Source: Natrinema salinisoli | GTDB taxonomy: Archaea > Halobacteriota > Halobacteria > Halobacteriales > Natrialbaceae | Reading direction: 5' to 3' | Length of the DNA: 64,000 nt | Assembly (NCBI RefSeq): GCF_020405205.1 | Contig: NZ_CP084469.1 | Coordinates: 3,286,001 to 3,350,000, forward strand | In this document: positions 34,588-39,883 of the stretch, piece after piece | How positions within the stretch are numbered: position 1 is the stretch's first letter | Layout of the letters: each line of letters begins with the position of its first letter | Made by a program: the position numbers and the translations under genes | Notes under the pieces: generated by a model | Told to the model about the DNA's origin: nothing | The model's input: only the letters and a program-made list of their open reading frames with translations | Database searches by the model: none

Positions 34588-35217
34588 ATGTCCGATACCC
34601 ACGAGGATCGACGCCAGCAGATGGTCGAAACGGTCGCGCCGCGCGTCGACGATGATCGCGTTCTCGAGGCCCTCGAGGCGGTCCCGCGCCACGAATTCGT
34701 CCCGCCGGACCGTCGGGACAGCGCCTACGCGGACCGTCCGCTTCCGATCGGTGACGGACAGACGATCAGCGCGCCGCACATGGTCGCGATCATGGCCGAC
34801 CTGCTCGAGGCCGATCCCGGCGACGACGTCCTCGAGATCGGCACCGGCTGTGGCTATCACGCCGCGGTAACCGCCGAACTGGTCGGTGACGAGAACGTCT
34901 ACACCGTCGAGTACGGCGAAGAGCTTGCCCGGCAGGCCCGCGACCGGCTCGCGGAACTGGGCTACGACGGCGTCTCGATCCGCGTCGGCGACGGTCGCGA
35001 GGGCTGGGCCGAGCACGCGCCCTACGACGCCGCCTACCTCACCTGCGCGACGCCGTCGCTTCCGGAGCCGGTCGTCGACCAGCTTCGACCCGGCGGTCAG
35101 CTGCTCGCACCGGTCGGGACCGGTCGCCAGCGGCTCGTGGCGGCGACGAAGCGGTCCGACGGCTCGCTCGCTCGAACCGAACGCGGCGGCGTTCGGTTCG
35201 TCCGGATGCGCGGCTAG
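34588..35217 (+). CDS. pcm: Protein-L-isoaspartate O-methyltransferase
   Basis: A 209-residue SAM-dependent enzyme that repairs isoaspartyl residues in aged proteins. It has the active-site segment GQTISAPHMVA (about 54-64), SAM motif I LEIGTGCGYHAA and post-I acidic 'VEYGEEL', then DGREGWAEHAPYD. The C-terminus RFVRMRG is slightly shorter than in bacterial enzymes. The paralogue at 35272 follows after 54 bases, in the same direction. Confidence 0.93.
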   Translation: MSDTHEDRRQQMVETVAPRVDDDRVLEALEAVPRHEFVPPDRRDSAYADRPLPIGDGQTISAPHMVAIMADLLEADPGDDVLEIGTGCGYHAAVTAELVGDENVYTVEYGEELARQARDRLAELGYDGVSIRVGDGREGWAEHAPYDAAYLTCATPSLPEPVVDQLRPGGQLLAPVGTGRQRLVAATKRSDGSLARTERGGVRFVRMRG

Positions 35218-35271: not shown

Positions 35272-36042
35272 ATGGACCCCGCGGTACTGCGAGAGGATAT
35301 GGTCGACGGCCTCGAGTCCCCACCCAGGGACGTCCTCGCCGACGAGGACCTCGCCGTCGCGATGCGCGACGTCCCGCGACACGCGTTCGTCGGCGACGAG
35401 CGGACGGCCTACGCCGAACGCGACCACGAGGCGCTCGGCACCCGCGTTCTCGCACCGAGCACGGTCGCCCGCCTCTTCGAAGCGCTCGCCCTCGAGGAGG
35501 ACGGTAGCGTACTGATCGTCGGCGTTGGAGTCGGCTACACGGCCGCGCTGGCGGCCGAACTCGTCGGCGAGACGAACGTCCACGCCGTCGACATCTCCCG
35601 CCCGCTGGTCGTCGAGGCGCGACGGAACCTCGCGGAGGCGGGATACGACGGCGTCCTCGTCGACTGCCGCGACGGCGCGAACGGGCTCTCCGAGTACGCC
35701 CCCTTCGATCGCATCCTGCTCGAGGCCGCCGCCGTCGATCCGCCCCGCGCGCTGCTCGAGCAATTGTCCGATGAGGGGCGGCTGGTCTTCCCGCGAGGAA
35801 CCCAGCAACAGCGGCTCGAGGCGGTTTCTGCCGACGGCGAGACGGACACGTACGACCCAATTTCCTTCGCCCCGCTGTTGGTCGAGGGCGAACAGTCGGG
35901 GGCCGTCGAGCGGAACCGAACGACGCGCGAGGACCGCGAGCGAGCATATCGTCGCGCCGAATCCCGACGCGGCTGGGAGCAGGACTGGATCGAGTGGGAG
36001 GAGACGATCGATCAGCAGTCCCGGCGAAAGCGATCTCGGTAG
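35272..36042 (+). CDS. Diverged protein-L-isoaspartate methyltransferase paralogue
   Basis: A 256-residue second PCMT-type protein. SAM motif I is modified (VGVGVGYTAALAAELVG), and the catalytic segment that reads ISAPHM in the neighbour is replaced by VLAPSTVA, so the usual catalytic serine context is missing. The C-terminal 60 residues are Arg/Glu-rich. It may methylate another target or be a binding-only paralogue. It shares orientation with pcm at 34588 and could be cotranscribed. Confidence 0.85.
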   Translation: MDPAVLREDMVDGLESPPRDVLADEDLAVAMRDVPRHAFVGDERTAYAERDHEALGTRVLAPSTVARLFEALALEEDGSVLIVGVGVGYTAALAAELVGETNVHAVDISRPLVVEARRNLAEAGYDGVLVDCRDGANGLSEYAPFDRILLEAAAVDPPRALLEQLSDEGRLVFPRGTQQQRLEAVSADGETDTYDPISFAPLLVEGEQSGAVERNRTTREDRERAYRRAESRRGWEQDWIEWEETIDQQSRRKRSR

Positions 36043-36204
36043 CTGATCGTCGCGGCGAACGTCCGTGCAGACCTGCCTCTGGACCGACTCCGACAGCTTC
36101 GTTTCCGGGTAACGTCCGAGAAACCGGCTGCTGGCGTCTGGGAGTATCGAAATCGCAATCACCGGCCGTGTCTCGTCGTTTCCCGAGAAGCAGTGATGCG
36201 TCTG

Positions 36205-36272
36205 TCCGTTGGTCTGGTGGAAAGGGGTGGGGGGAAAGGGGGGGTGGCGACAGTCTGTCTCAGATCGCCACT
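36205..36272 (-). ncRNA. Candidate C-rich small RNA, copy 1
   Basis: Read on the minus strand. A TATA-like TTATTTTTAA (about 36294-36303) is followed about 27 bases later by a hairpin starting at 36271: GTGGCGA pairs with TCGCCAC around an inner TCTG/CAGA helix with AGA loop and a three-base bulge. A C-rich tail (C7, C6, then CACCCCTTTCC) follows. No ORF fits. The right end is inferred from promoter spacing; the 3' end is approximate. Confidence 0.45.
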
Positions 36273-36308
36273 TAGAGGTACACACTGGAGGGGGTTAAAA
36301 ATAACTTC

Positions 36309-36350
36309 TAACTGATTAGTGGGGCTAAATCACAATCTCTAACTAATTAG
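36309..36350. promoter_or_regulatory. Paired AT palindromes upstream of copy 1
   Basis: CTAACTGATTAG-type and CTAACTAATTAG palindromes with centres 31 bases apart (three helical turns). They lie directly upstream of the copy 1 TATA box when read on the minus strand. Both fit a loose consensus CTAAYTNRTTAG, suggesting paired binding of one dimeric regulator. Confidence 0.5.
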
Positions 36351-36557
36351 CACCAATCAGAAGAATAGCTAACGACAATTATCATTTGATGCCGGTCGCC
36401 TGATTTGAAGCTGAACTCGACGATGCATCTCTCGGAAACGGAGATAGTCGTCCTGAAAACCGCTACGGCGACTGGTACCGTGCGGAAGATCGTCTCCGCT
36501 CATCCCGCTTCGTCTCTGAAGCGAACCGAGGGATCGCGGTCGCTACCGAATAGTGGT

Positions 36558-36612
36558 TCGCGGAAAGGGGGTGGGGGGATTGGGGTGGCGAGGGATAATC
36601 CCTGATCGCCAT
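36558..36612 (-). ncRNA. Candidate C-rich small RNA, copy 2
   Basis: Same layout as copy 1. TATA-like CTATACTTAA (about 36635-36644) lies about 27 bases before a hairpin at 36611: TGGCG/CGCCA outer helix, three-base bulge, inner AGGGA/TCCCT helix with TTA loop, then CACCCCAATCCCCCCACCCC. The inner helix differs in sequence from copy 1 yet still pairs, which argues that the RNA structure is selected. The transcript would begin just after the HTH_10 regulator gene ends. Confidence 0.45.
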
Positions 36613-36649
36613 GTTGTGATATGATTTGCCGATTGTTAAGTATAGTTTT

Positions 36650-36691
36650 TAACTAGTTAGGGCCTTCTCGAACCATGCTCTAATTAATTAG
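36650..36691. promoter_or_regulatory. Paired AT palindromes upstream of copy 2
   Basis: TTAACTAGTTAG and CTAATTAATTAG palindromes, again with centres 31 bases apart, and in the same position relative to hairpin and TATA box as in copy 1. The second palindrome overlaps the stop codon of the regulator gene (36684-36686). Confidence 0.5.
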
Positions 36692-38807
36692 AATGTCCGT
36701 CGAAGGCCAACGTCACGAGTTTCCGTTCGGCTGCCCGCAGGTGGTAGTGATACGTCGGCGACGAGACGTCGAGTGCATCCGCGAGGTCCTCGCCAGTACT
36801 CTCGCGCGGCCATTCGAAGAAGCCGCTGTAGTGAGCAGCCTGCAGCGCTTCGAACTGCTTGTCCGTGAGCCGCTCCGCGAGGTGGGTGTCAAGTCGTCGT
36901 GCCGAACGCGTATGTGTGGTCTCCCGTTTGGCCACCAGTTCCGTCTCCGGATACTCCTCCTGGATCGCTTCCACCAGCGACCGCGTCTCGACTCCCTGTG
37001 GCACCTCGAGGACGAGCGTCGCCGTCCCGTCCTCGGCCGTCGCCATCCGTATCTGAACGTCGTAGATCCGCAGCACGTCGAGAAACGGCGTCGACGTTAC
37101 CGTTAGTTCGAACAGCGTCTCTTCGTCGCCCTCGGACACAACCGACAGCGTCTCGATCGACGCCCACTCGTTCTCGAGGGCAGTCAACGACGCCGTCACC
37201 GGCGCACTGACGAACAGTACGATCCCGTCCTCGCCGCGGTCGATGACGCCATCGAGCGTTATCCGTTCGCTCCCCGCGAGTCGGTCCGAGAGCCGATTGA
37301 GCAGCAATCGCGAATCCCCGACGGCGAGTTCCAGCTCGAGCCGGCTGTCGGTTAGCATCGCCTGCGTTTGCTCGACCGATCGGATCGCGTGGCCGATGGT
37401 TTCCCCGAGTTCGGCGAGGACTTCCCGCTCGCTTTCGCCGACCGAATCGGCACCCGCGACGTGAACGACGAGGACACCGTACCGGCGTTCGTCAGCGACG
37501 AGGGGCACCCCGAGCACCGTCTGGTAGCCGTATGTCAACGCTTCCTTGCGCCGCGATCGCCACTGATCGTCCTCGAGGACGTCGTGTATCAACTGTAACC
37601 GTCCCGACTCGAGGATCTCTCGGACCAGCGTGATCTCGGGGGCGCAATCGCCGTCGCCGCGGATCGTGTCGATGTAGGCTGCGTCGATCCCGGACCATGC
37701 GGTCGGCGTCGGCGGTTCGTCGTCGCTCGCGGCGATCCAGGCGAAGCGATATCGGTCCGTCTCCGCGAGACGATCGCACACCGTTTCTTCGATCGCCGCT
37801 CGCGTCGACGCCTGCGCGACGCCGTGGTTGATCTCCCGAACGATCTCGTTCGTGTGGTTGAGTCGCGTCAGTTCCTCGTTTTGCCGCGTGAGCGTTCGGT
37901 CGTGGTCGCGGAGCAACTGCTCCCGTTCGGCCCGGTCCAGCGCGGCCTCGGTGTTGGCCGCCAGAATGTGCAACAGCTCGGTCATCGTCTCGTCGAATCC
38001 GTCGACATCCTCGCAGCCCGCGACCAGCACGCCGTGTGTCCCGAGTGGAACGATCAACTCGCTTCGGCCCGACGCACCCGTCGCCTCGACGCTATCCTCG
38101 CGCGTCACGTCTTCGTAGTAGGCGCTTTCCCCCTCCGAGAACACGTCCCAGACCAGTCCCTCGCCCCGCTCGAAGGTCTCCGCCGGATCGCCACGCTCGG
38201 GGGATCGCCGCGTCGATGCCGCGTGCACGAGGCTGCCCGCAGTGGGTTCGAACGCGTACGACGCGGCGACCGCCACGTCGAGGATATCGCTTGCGGTCTC
38301 GACCGCCGACCGGTAGATCTCGTCTTTGGTCTCCGCTCGCATCAGATCCCGCGTCGTCTCGTGTAACGTCGTCAGCGTCCGTTCGTAACGGCGCTCGCTC
38401 TCCCGGAGCTCCGTCTCCGTGCGGTACTGGGCGACCGCGTTCGTGATCTGATTCGCCAGCAACGCGTACTGCTTCTTTCCGGACTCCTTCTGCAGATACT
38501 GCGTCACGCCCGCCGCGATCGCCTCGCTCGCGATCTCCTCCGATCCCCGCCCGGTGAAGAGCACGAATGGGAGATCGGGATCGTCGTCGCGAACGCGCTC
38601 GAGCAACTCGAGCCCCGTCATCTCCGGCATCTCGTAATCGCTGACGATACAGTCGACGGCCCGCCGTTCGAGGACCGCGAGCGCTTCCGCGCCGTCCGTC
38701 GCCGCTTCGGCCTCGATCGCGTCGTGCTCGCGCTCGAGCATCTCTCCGGCGAGATCCGCGAATCCCGGTTCGTTGTCGACGACGAGTACAGTGATCGGTT
38801 TCGTCAT
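36684..38807 (-). CDS. Receiver-GAF-GAF-HTH_10 (Bat-type) transcriptional regulator
   Basis: A 707-residue signal-responsive regulator. The N-terminal receiver domain has phosphoacceptor Asp57 (VSDYEMP), Asp11, Thr85 and Lys107 intact. Two GAF domains follow (about 160-310 and 325-490), and a Bat-type linker (about 500-640) ends in the HTH_10 DNA-binding helix (LTDKQFEALQAAHYSGFFEWPRESTGEDLADALDVSSPTYHYHLRAAE). The start at 38807 (MTKPITVLVV) gives a clean receiver domain. Direct regulation of the C-rich RNA modules downstream is possible but unproven; the kinase partner is not adjacent. Confidence 0.92.
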   Translation of the reverse strand: MTKPITVLVVDNEPGFADLAGEMLEREHDAIEAEAATDGAEALAVLERRAVDCIVSDYEMPEMTGLELLERVRDDDPDLPFVLFTGRGSEEIASEAIAAGVTQYLQKESGKKQYALLANQITNAVAQYRTETELRESERRYERTLTTLHETTRDLMRAETKDEIYRSAVETASDILDVAVAASYAFEPTAGSLVHAASTRRSPERGDPAETFERGEGLVWDVFSEGESAYYEDVTREDSVEATGASGRSELIVPLGTHGVLVAGCEDVDGFDETMTELLHILAANTEAALDRAEREQLLRDHDRTLTRQNEELTRLNHTNEIVREINHGVAQASTRAAIEETVCDRLAETDRYRFAWIAASDDEPPTPTAWSGIDAAYIDTIRGDGDCAPEITLVREILESGRLQLIHDVLEDDQWRSRRKEALTYGYQTVLGVPLVADERRYGVLVVHVAGADSVGESEREVLAELGETIGHAIRSVEQTQAMLTDSRLELELAVGDSRLLLNRLSDRLAGSERITLDGVIDRGEDGIVLFVSAPVTASLTALENEWASIETLSVVSEGDEETLFELTVTSTPFLDVLRIYDVQIRMATAEDGTATLVLEVPQGVETRSLVEAIQEEYPETELVAKRETTHTRSARRLDTHLAERLTDKQFEALQAAHYSGFFEWPRESTGEDLADALDVSSPTYHYHLRAAERKLVTLAFDGHSN

Positions 38808-38927
38808 TGATTTGCCTGTCCGCTGTTCCGTTTGTCGACACATCGACGAAGGCATACTAAACAATTAGCATTCGGCTCGAACCTGCTCGAACCACCTAGT
38901 ATCTCTGTCGTCCCTGATCGTGGGAAC

Positions 38928-39341
38928 TCACGGAATATCTCCGTCGAATTCGTATTCGCCTGCCCAGTTGATTGACGGATGATCGATTTCGGATTCGAAG
39001 CGGAGCTCCATCTTCTGCTCCGTCGCGTCGACTGCATCGACCCAATAAAACCGCTCGTTTTCGGGATAGTAGACCAGAAACGCGTCGATTAACCCGTGAT
39101 ACGTCTCTTCGTGATAGACGCCGTTCTTCGTCGTTTGCGAGTGGGTGCTAAATCGGAGTGTTTTCGCTTTGTTCGACCATCCAGTCTTGCACTGTACTCG
39201 GTGGAGTTCAGTCCCATCGTCGACGACGAGATCGTACTTGTCGTTATCTCCGAACGGAACTGAGACGCTGTAGCCACAGGCAACGAGTTCGGATAGGGCC
39301 CTCGCCTCGGTTTCGTCACCGATTGCTTTCGAATTTCGCAT
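38928..39341 (-). CDS. PD-(D/E)XK nuclease-like protein (PDDEXK_5)
   Basis: A 137-residue protein resembling the group I intron-type PDDEXK endonuclease family. The catalytic core is DNDKYDLVVDDGTELHRVQCKTG, giving Asp37 and the QxK motif Gln50/Lys52, with an N-terminal acidic helix (GDETEARALSELVACG). Such proteins often accompany tRNA genes and mobile DNA. It lies 122 bases from a tRNA-Asp gene and the two copies of its repeat. Activity and target site are unknown. Confidence 0.8.
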   Translation of the reverse strand: MRNSKAIGDETEARALSELVACGYSVSVPFGDNDKYDLVVDDGTELHRVQCKTGWSNKAKTLRFSTHSQTTKNGVYHEETYHGLIDAFLVYYPENERFYWVDAVDATEQKMELRFESEIDHPSINWAGEYEFDGDIP

Positions 39342-39434: not shown

Positions 39435-39579
39435 ATCGCTCGTCGTTTGGTTCCTCGAGAAAGCGCCCGAGGCGGGATTTGAACCCGCGTCACAACCGTG
39501 ACAGGGTTGTATGATGGGCCACTACACCACCCGGGCAACCTGCAACTCTTCATTTCCCGGTAACACTATTAAGGGTTTT
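39435..39579. repeat. 145-bp direct repeat, copy A (contains tRNA-Asp)
   Basis: From ATCGCTCGTCGTTT to the TTAAGGGTTTT promoter block, this matches 39739-39883 almost base for base, offset by exactly 304 bases. It includes a whole tRNA-Asp gene and its minus-strand promoter. Confidence 0.9.
39464..39536 (-). tRNA. tRNA-Asp (GTC), copy 1
   Basis: On the minus strand: acceptor GCCCGGG/CTCGGGC with one G-T pair, anticodon stem CAACC/GGTTG with loop CTGTCAC (anticodon GTC), and T-arm GCGGG/CCCGC around TTCAAAT. Discriminator G, CCA not encoded. A TTAAT-like TATA box lies about 32 bases upstream of the 5' end (39568-39573). Confidence 0.93.
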
Positions 39580-39738: not shown

Positions 39739-39883
39739 ATCGCTCGTCGTTTAGGTCCTCGAGAAAGCGCCCGAGGCGGGATTTGAACCCGCGTCACAAC
39801 CGTGACAGGGTTGTATGATGGGCCACTACACCACCCGGGCAACCTGCAACTCTTCATTTCCCCGACGGAGTATTAAGGGTTTT
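39739..39883. repeat. 145-bp direct repeat, copy B (contains tRNA-Asp)
   Basis: Second copy of the block at 39435-39579, differing at only a few bases outside the tRNA. Both tRNA and promoter are duplicated, so both copies should be functional. Confidence 0.9.
39768..39840 (-). tRNA. tRNA-Asp (GTC), copy 2
   Basis: Identical to the copy at 39464-39536 in every base read (acceptor, anticodon and T-arm), with its own TATA-like ATTAAG block at 39872-39877, again 32 bases from the 5' end. Confidence 0.93.

Follow-up and report, generated by a model that had tools for sequence, protein, structure and literature searches.

What is encoded behind the response regulator gene of the haloarchaeon Natrinema salinisoli, where the same arrangement of palindromes, hairpin and C-rich stretch stands twice in tandem? 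The question concerns a window of 64,000 nucleotides, the whole stretch of DNA analyzed here (contig NZ_CP084469.1, positions 3,286,001 to 3,350,000; all coordinates below count from the start of the window), in which a gene for a response regulator (RR; 36684-38807, minus strand) faces a convergent PCMT gene (35272-36042, plus strand). Between the two, the minus strand holds two copies, A and B, of one unit that consists, in this order, of palindrome P1, palindrome P2, a TATA-like box, a hairpin and a C-rich tail. The reading that we favor, with a probability of about 0.62, is that the unit is the gene of a small RNA of about 55 nt that RR activates, that RR feeds back on its own gene, and that the C-rich tail acts in trans on G-rich mRNA.

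A preliminary description of this DNA had reported two promoter-hairpin-C-tail copies with identical spacing, and this is confirmed, far beyond chance, by sequence reading, by comparison with shuffles and by alignment of the copies (65.5% identity over 145 bases, E = 6e-10). In both, the centers of P1 and P2 are 31 bp apart and the start of P2 lies 50 bases before the sequence GGCG of the hairpin. In copy A, P1 (CTAATTAGTTAG, 36339-36350) and P2 (CTAATCAGTTAG, 36308-36319), placed by sequence reading and palindrome count and, like all palindromes here, without assigned strand, precede a TATA-like box on the minus strand (ATTTTTAA, 36295-36302, from a position profile over many copies). The predicted small RNA of copy A (36219-36273, minus strand, about 55 nt, E = 2.0e-17 with a covariance model named R1) would comprise a hairpin at 36244-36271, which by folding pairs GTGGCGA with TCGCCAC around an inner TCTG/CAGA helix, and a C-rich, G-free tail at 36219-36244 of the form C7 TTT C6 A C4 TTTCC, both on the minus strand. 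In copy B, P1 (CTAATTAATTAG, 36680-36691) overlaps the stop codon of RR (36684-36686), and P2 (CTAACTAGTTAA, 36649-36660, one mismatch, located by the position profile) adjoins the B recognition element (BRE) and TATA box (ATACTTAA, 36636-36643, minus strand, from the same profile). The predicted RNA of copy B (36562-36614, minus strand, about 53 nt, E = 1.1e-11 with R1) has its start placed by TATA spacing and its 3' end, near TTTCC, by loss of conservation and a T-run; the ends of copy A were set in the same way. Its hairpin (36586-36611, minus strand; folding and alignment) has the outer stem TGGCGA/TCGCCA, and its C-rich, G-free tail (36562-36585, minus strand) reads C4 AAT C6 A C5 TTTCC. 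New with respect to the preliminary description are the overlap of P1 of copy B with the RR stop codon, a fourth palindrome upstream of RR and the family-wide co-inheritance of RR and the RNA.

The RR gene, identified from its open reading frame (ORF) and Pfam matches, is read from the ATG at 38807 and has the domain order REC-GAF-GAF-BAT-HTH_10. The mechanical ORF reaches back to a TTG at 38864, and the start was set by comparison with the N-termini of relatives, for example MTKPITVLIVDNEPG. The receiver domain (PF00072, 83.3 bits, residues 26-131) is followed by GAF domains (PF13185/PF13492 matches), a BAT domain (PF15915, 118.6 bits) and an HTH_10 domain (PF04967, 72.2 bits), the last two above their cut-offs. 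By its domains, RR counts both as an HTH_10/Bat-type regulator and as a response regulator.

How far does this arrangement extend? The unit is conserved, has a fixed architecture and is co-inherited with RR, and its palindrome is nearly exclusive to the promoters of the unit and of RR. By blastn, the unit was found in 23 of 41 relatives, all within the genus. R1 was built from 34 genus copies, and the covariance-model search for hairpin plus C tract that the preliminary description had proposed matched 101 of 125 genomes of the family, in 26 of 29 genera (E <= 0.001). An order-wide search with R1, covering 392 genomes of which 96 belong to the family and 296 to others, gave, besides a few further weak in-family matches in G005, G059, G065 and G091, six weak matches outside the family (E 2e-4 to 9e-3), none of them (0/6) with the palindrome. 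Four of the six, L184-L186 inside long ORFs and L187 overlapping the end of one, are taken as chance; the other two, L182 and L183, are C-tails behind other hairpins. An exact pattern found 41 stretches in 84,980 species genomes. The 30 archaeal ones all come from Natrialbaceae genera by taxonomy or from metagenome-assembled genomes labelled so, the 11 bacterial ones are put down to chance, and viral contigs gave no match to the pattern.

Within the family, the RNA follows RR closely. Orthologs of RR stand well apart from paralogs: the best RR match reaches at least 537 bits in 99 genomes, which have the ortholog, and does not exceed 340 bits in the 25 further genomes with any match, while G139 has no RR match at all. 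By R1 counts over the 125 genomes, RR and RNA are both present in 95, RR alone in 4, the RNA alone in 6 and neither in 20 (Fisher p = 2.7e-14, phylogeny ignored); the RNA is missing, that is, in 20 of 26 genomes without RR. The four genomes that apparently have RR alone belong to genus g27 and, when read, do have the RNA downstream of RR, as does G046, where the model had matched an unlinked copy. In all, the RNA lies downstream of RR in 99 of 99 RR-positive genomes (94 by coordinates, 5 by reading). In the 94 it is on the same strand and at most 2 kb away, the distance from the end of the RR hit being 70-89 nt in 78 and 127-534 nt in 16; 28 genomes have two linked RNA copies. Both RR states occur within each of six genera (g1, g25, g28, g35, g40, g44), so that RR must have been lost repeatedly. 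These counts hinge on assembly completeness, which is 77% and 91% for the RR-less genomes of g28 and g40. Loss of the hairpin and palindromes in close relatives, named in the preliminary description as evidence that would speak against the module, was seen only where RR is also lost or decays.

Genus g18 has an unlinked RNA copy in six genomes, and P1 stood at its usual place in all three that were read. At L081 and L119 of this genus, the unlinked second copies lie beside phenylacetate-degradation-like or thioesterase-like genes (named by reading), and at L119 the gene of another receiver-domain regulator begins 236 bases downstream of the copy. A natural case of regulator loss may be seen in genus g31, where at L095 and L174 RR is apparently reduced to a C-terminal remnant reading VFDR before P1 and the RNA is kept.

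If RR controls this RNA, which DNA would it bind? The palindrome CTAAN4TTAG occurs four times in the window against 0.09 times expected from shuffles. Three of these exact sites are at the RNA promoters and the fourth, P0 (CTAATTGTTTAG, 38857-38868), a predicted autoregulatory operator, lies directly upstream of RR and overlaps a TATA-like stretch. The loci of 39 relatives (231,633 bases) contain 64 exact palindromes, namely 31 P1, 10 P2, 18 upstream of RR and 5 at second copies, and none elsewhere. The 4.7-Mb genome as a whole has 9, of which 4 fall within this 2.6-kb locus; the reversed control pattern has 32 matches per strand, which shows CTAAN4TTAG to be rare in general. Among the relatives' loci counted as RR-positive, none of the 34 shows more than one mismatch in P1, whereas 4 of 5 loci from RR-negative genomes that keep the RNA show two or more (2 in G093 by hand count, 5-6 in G016, G100 and G115); G139, a contig-edge case, was set aside here. 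Four full-length RR homologs of family f7 (40-41%) carry the recognition helix TFNQHLRAGERKL against the usual TYHYHLRAAERKL of the family, and for these four the 4-kb loci hold no exact palindrome, the 900 bases downstream lack a C5 run, and R1 does not match. The distribution of the palindrome, the decay of P1 without RR and the contrast with f7 together suggest that RR is likely the protein that binds the palindrome, which lends strong if indirect support, along with the co-inheritance, to the earlier proposal that the adjacent HTH_10 regulator acts on these sites.

The promoter architecture was profiled over 91 copies, 90 from the family plus one bacterial chance match (L150). Counted from GGCG, the TATA core lies at -29 to -26 (T in 96% at -29, T in 98% at -28, A in 97% at -27), P2 spans -50 to -37 and a C-T-A pattern occupies -13, -11 and -10. 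By best match, P1 starts 81 bases before GGCG in 65 copies and 80 or 82 bases before it in 10; in 13 of the 91, P2 outmatched P1. An A at -4, present in 82%, is the predicted transcription start, which would place the starts at about 36273 in copy A and about 36614 in copy B. The TATA box then lies about 25 bases ahead of the start, the distance expected for archaeal promoters. Haloarchaeal TATA/BRE motifs are given in PMC4983044. A looser pattern of P2 plus TATA was rejected (5 real against 7 control matches). Downstream of the C-tail, conservation stops at a short T-run, CTTTCC or, in several genera, CACTTTTC, which gives a predicted RNA length of about 53-60 nt; no terminator of the hairpin-plus-U-run type was seen at the RNA copies.

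What would the RNA look like? The fold of copy A has -13.8 kcal/mol (z -3.1 against shuffles) and that of copy B -13.1 kcal/mol (z -2.4). Compensatory change in the inner helices, as the preliminary description had it, did not hold up: over the 34 genus copies, both sides changed at 1 of 11 pairs, against a shuffle mean of 1.7, and in folding the TCTG/CAGA helix of copy A has a 3-nt bulge on its 3' side whereas the GGGA/TCCC helix of copy B has its bulge on the 5' side. The inner helices of the two copies are not equivalent, and the inner helix is unconserved. Pairing in the outer stem is held in 98.3% of cells (7 pairs, 94 family copies), the same as in shuffles, and the arms are 12-18 bases apart, 14 in 81 of 94 copies. 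In the divergent genus g27, GGCGCTA...TAGTCGCC replaces the stem and can, by eye, pair with a bulge. The first 20 bases of the tail are free of G in 88 of 94 family copies and contain 15 C on average, and the form C-run, AAT, C-run, A, C-run recurs in many genera. Rfam 15 yielded three tRNAs and nothing else above the gathering threshold in the whole window, and two matches far below threshold in a relaxed scan of 36100-36750, so that no Rfam family matches the RNA.

Together, our data suggest a model in which tandem genes specify a small RNA of about 55 nt and RR likely activates them by binding the paired CTAAN4TTAG sites upstream of the TATA boxes. The position of P1 and P2 upstream of BRE and TATA suggests activation of the RNA. 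RR probably also binds the palindrome over its own promoter, and as P0 covers a TATA-like stretch, negative feedback on RR would be a reasonable expectation. Other clear RR sites are missing from the genome, so that the small RNA would be the main output of RR. The RNA is predicted to begin with the hairpin UGGCGA/UCGCCA, which likely forms in the RNA and would cap its 5' end, leaving the G-free, C-rich tail exposed for a role in trans, of which base-pairing with short G-rich segments of mRNAs is the most likely form. Transcription, binding by RR, activation rather than repression and the targets are all predicted from sequence. We hold control of a small RNA by RR, the first part of the model, to be quite probable; that C-blocks pair over short lengths with G-rich parts of mRNAs is, taken alone, a tentative proposal to which we give somewhat less than even odds.

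Several observations weigh against this model. The outer stem shows no both-side change (0 of 7 pairs over 94 family copies), and being invariant in sequence it offers no covariation to prove an RNA hairpin; the copies were, moreover, gathered by models and patterns that favor this stem. The tail of copy A is unlike that of copy B. A genome-wide search for an 18-nt antisense to the tail with up to 3 mismatches found only the self matches at the locus, which leaves the pairing target without support; pairing of any kind, also that with the G-rich ribosome-binding sites proposed in the preliminary description, could only be short. P2 matches less well than P1, with 2-3 mismatches in 8 of 34 loci, and in G094 P1 is intact though RR is gone, with only an RR C-terminal remnant by reading. 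The autoregulatory role of P0, which is likely, is deduced from its position, and an exact site just upstream of RR occurs in only 18 of the 39 relatives' loci, a count in which the g18 loci stop short of the start of their longer RR gene. Finally, the genome contains five further exact palindromes (G000:C1:184328, 388091, 1214488, 2107769 and 3708496). A wider regulon built on these five was considered and rejected, as their number is near chance by the window shuffles (0.09 per 64 kb) and they lack clear promoter logic. The palindrome at 184328 precedes a TATA-like run and an ATG.

Could the same RR-controlled small RNA work on a protein instead, its C-blocks titrating a C-binding RNA-binding protein as CsrB and RsmZ titrate CsrA? 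The make-up of the tail, repeated C-runs that are nearly free of G and have hardly any invariant letters in the linkers, would suit such a sponge, as would the variation in block count and linker at steady C-richness and the redundant tandem copies in the 28 genomes with two. The lack of an extended complement in the genome also fits a sponge, although we take it to favor short C-block pairing over titration. With 2-4 blocks, the RNA is short for the role, and we know of no C-specific RNA-binding protein in haloarchaea; on balance, a sponge seems unlikely, if far from negligible. The case for an element that acts as DNA, either an inverted repeat serving as operator or a G-quadruplex of the G-rich strand that affects transcription or replication, is improbable. 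The arms TGGCGA/TCGCCA are fixed in sequence as in a protein site, and 47 of 91 tails could form a three-layer quadruplex or i-motif, but the other 44 lack the four runs required, and with about half of the tails unable to form one we rejected the G-quadruplex as a conserved function. Nor does the variable arm spacing fit an operator as well as it fits a loop, the unit stands at a constant distance behind a TATA box with no gene after it, and similar C-tails in other families sit behind hairpins of unrelated sequence.

The placement of the unit in most genera read, right behind the stop codon of RR and pointing towards PCMT, is what one would expect of a cis-acting part of either mRNA, be it a terminator or 3'-UTR (untranslated region) element of RR or a transcript antisense to the convergent PCMT. 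Yet each copy has its own promoter, the second copies of g18 keep the same promoter away from RR, no PCMT match adjoins the RNA in the g18 loci, and in L093 PCMT is 1.8 kb off. We rejected both the PCMT antisense and the RR 3'-UTR because unlinked copies have their own promoter, and a cis role of any kind now seems very improbable. Least credible of all is a very short coding RNA with a leaderless AUG GCG AUC ... peptide. Some copies do have ATGGCGATC at the predicted start, but the A before TGG is present in only 36% of 91 copies and in the TCTGAG variants codon 4 of the frame is already UGA.

Does the favored reading, an RR-activated small RNA with a trans-acting C-tail, have counterparts among known systems? 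In vibrios, the response regulator LuxO adjoins or controls several near-identical, redundant Qrr small RNAs through upstream sites, and the RNA is a main output. RR likewise adjoins redundant predicted RNA genes with paired upstream palindromes, a likeness of wiring only, in which binding is predicted; it differs in having a TATA/BRE promoter and an HTH_10 regulator rather than sigma-54, in lacking an Rfam match and in its haloarchaeal hosts. In the GacA-RsmY/RsmZ and CsrB/C systems, the redundant small RNAs are preceded by a palindrome on which a response regulator acts. These differ from the present unit, which has no conserved series of GGA hairpins and a single-stranded part that is C-rich. 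By analogy, the unit resembles LuxO-Qrr or GacA-RsmY/Z in its predicted wiring but is a member of neither, given its different type of promoter, family of regulator and RNA sequence.

For the action of the tail, the C-rich small RNAs of the RoxS/RsaE type in Gram-positive bacteria are informative, as they direct an exposed C-rich stretch against G-rich ribosome-binding sites. Most haloarchaeal mRNAs are leaderless, which makes the target class less obvious here than for RoxS/RsaE or the cyanobacterial Yfr1. According to PMC6778093, Yfr1 and Yfr2 also expose a C-rich stretch against G-rich ribosome-binding sites. The present RNA differs from RoxS/RsaE and Yfr1 in starting with a 5' hairpin that is followed by a long, open tail of C-blocks. 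Bat, a related helix-turn-helix regulator found in haloarchaea and described in PMC3184054 and PMC1447603, combines GAF domains with a C-terminal helix-turn-helix, and bop has an upstream activator sequence. RR differs from Bat in having a receiver domain and no PAS match, and the sites predicted for it belong to RNA genes and to the RR promoter itself. P2 of copy B (AACTAGTT) is similar to the core of the bop site, which we take to be ACTAGTT. Among archaeal small RNAs, sRNA132 and SHOxi of Haloferax and sRNA162 of Methanosarcina have mRNA targets (PMC6560208, PMC3510493; SHOxi PMC12482152). In the texts consulted, none of these is linked to a dedicated response regulator encoded next to it, and the present RNA has no Rfam family.

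Is the hairpin-plus-C-tail design confined to the family? L182 and L183, which come from families f4 and f5, are C-tails that lie between genes and read C6-A-C6-A-C5/6-T-run. Outside the family, 8 of 296 genomes contain the exact 20-mer CACCCCCCACCCCCCACCCC; within it, where tails mostly read differently, 0 of 96 do. The reversed control was found in 3 of 392 genomes, and two of the three belong to the 8. The eight C6-A-C6-A-C4+ tails (L204-L211; G334, G301, G344, G375, G324, G360, G264 and G314) are from f4 and f5. In six of them, a perfect 6-7-bp stem with a short loop ends 2-5 bases before the tail, a result reached by 0 to 5 of 300 shuffles and favored for two of the six, L206 and L210, by a tail start that was set by hand at the hairpin. 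The stem is GCACCCA/TGGGTGC in five genomes of two genera, which also share GGCC..AA..TTCTT about 30 bases ahead of the hairpin, and GGCACC/GGTGCC in one; L205 has a hairpin with a longer loop before the C-tail and L211 none directly before it. There is no RR match at these eight loci. At L211, which is the place of L183, a PAS protein gene about 150 bases downstream encodes a C-terminal region like the HTH domain of RR. L204-L211 possibly represent a wider class of hairpin-plus-C-tail RNAs and are offered as a lead; if they are RNAs, hairpin plus C-tail would be a common plan in which stems and control differ.

To our knowledge, few haloarchaeal small RNAs have a known regulator. Nearly 2800 small RNAs have been counted in one haloarchaeon, according to PMC6560208. 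The open-licence literature, as far as it was searched, contained no description of the RNA reported here and no haloarchaeal small RNA tied to a dedicated adjacent response regulator. It is conceivable, though we would wager slightly against it, that the locus holds a complete archaeal signaling pathway with RNA as its dedicated output: a GAF-containing RR that controls little beyond itself and its C-rich RNA (one or two copies), an independent counterpart of LuxO-Qrr and GacA-Rsm, and a regulated branch of a wider haloarchaeal class of RNAs with the hairpin first and a G-free tail of C-blocks. If confirmed, archaea would have evolved response-regulator-to-small-RNA wiring independently, and the locus would offer a defined starting point for studying how a C-block tail works in an archaeal RNA. 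Regulator, predicted sites and RNA would make up one small, movable, family-wide unit.

The surroundings of the locus have features of their own. The PCMT gene is the second of two tandem genes for PCMT-family methyltransferases (34588-35217 and 35272-36042), both of which match PF01135, the second more weakly; in many of the relatives' loci that were read, matches to both stand next to RR. Upstream of RR, a 137-aa ORF (38928-39341), matched in some relatives, looks by eye like a small endonuclease-type protein. Beyond it, two tRNA-Asp(GTC) genes stand in tandem on a 145-bp direct repeat (39435-39579 and 39739-39883) that is 94% identical, 304 bp apart, has matching flanks and adjoins rpoH.

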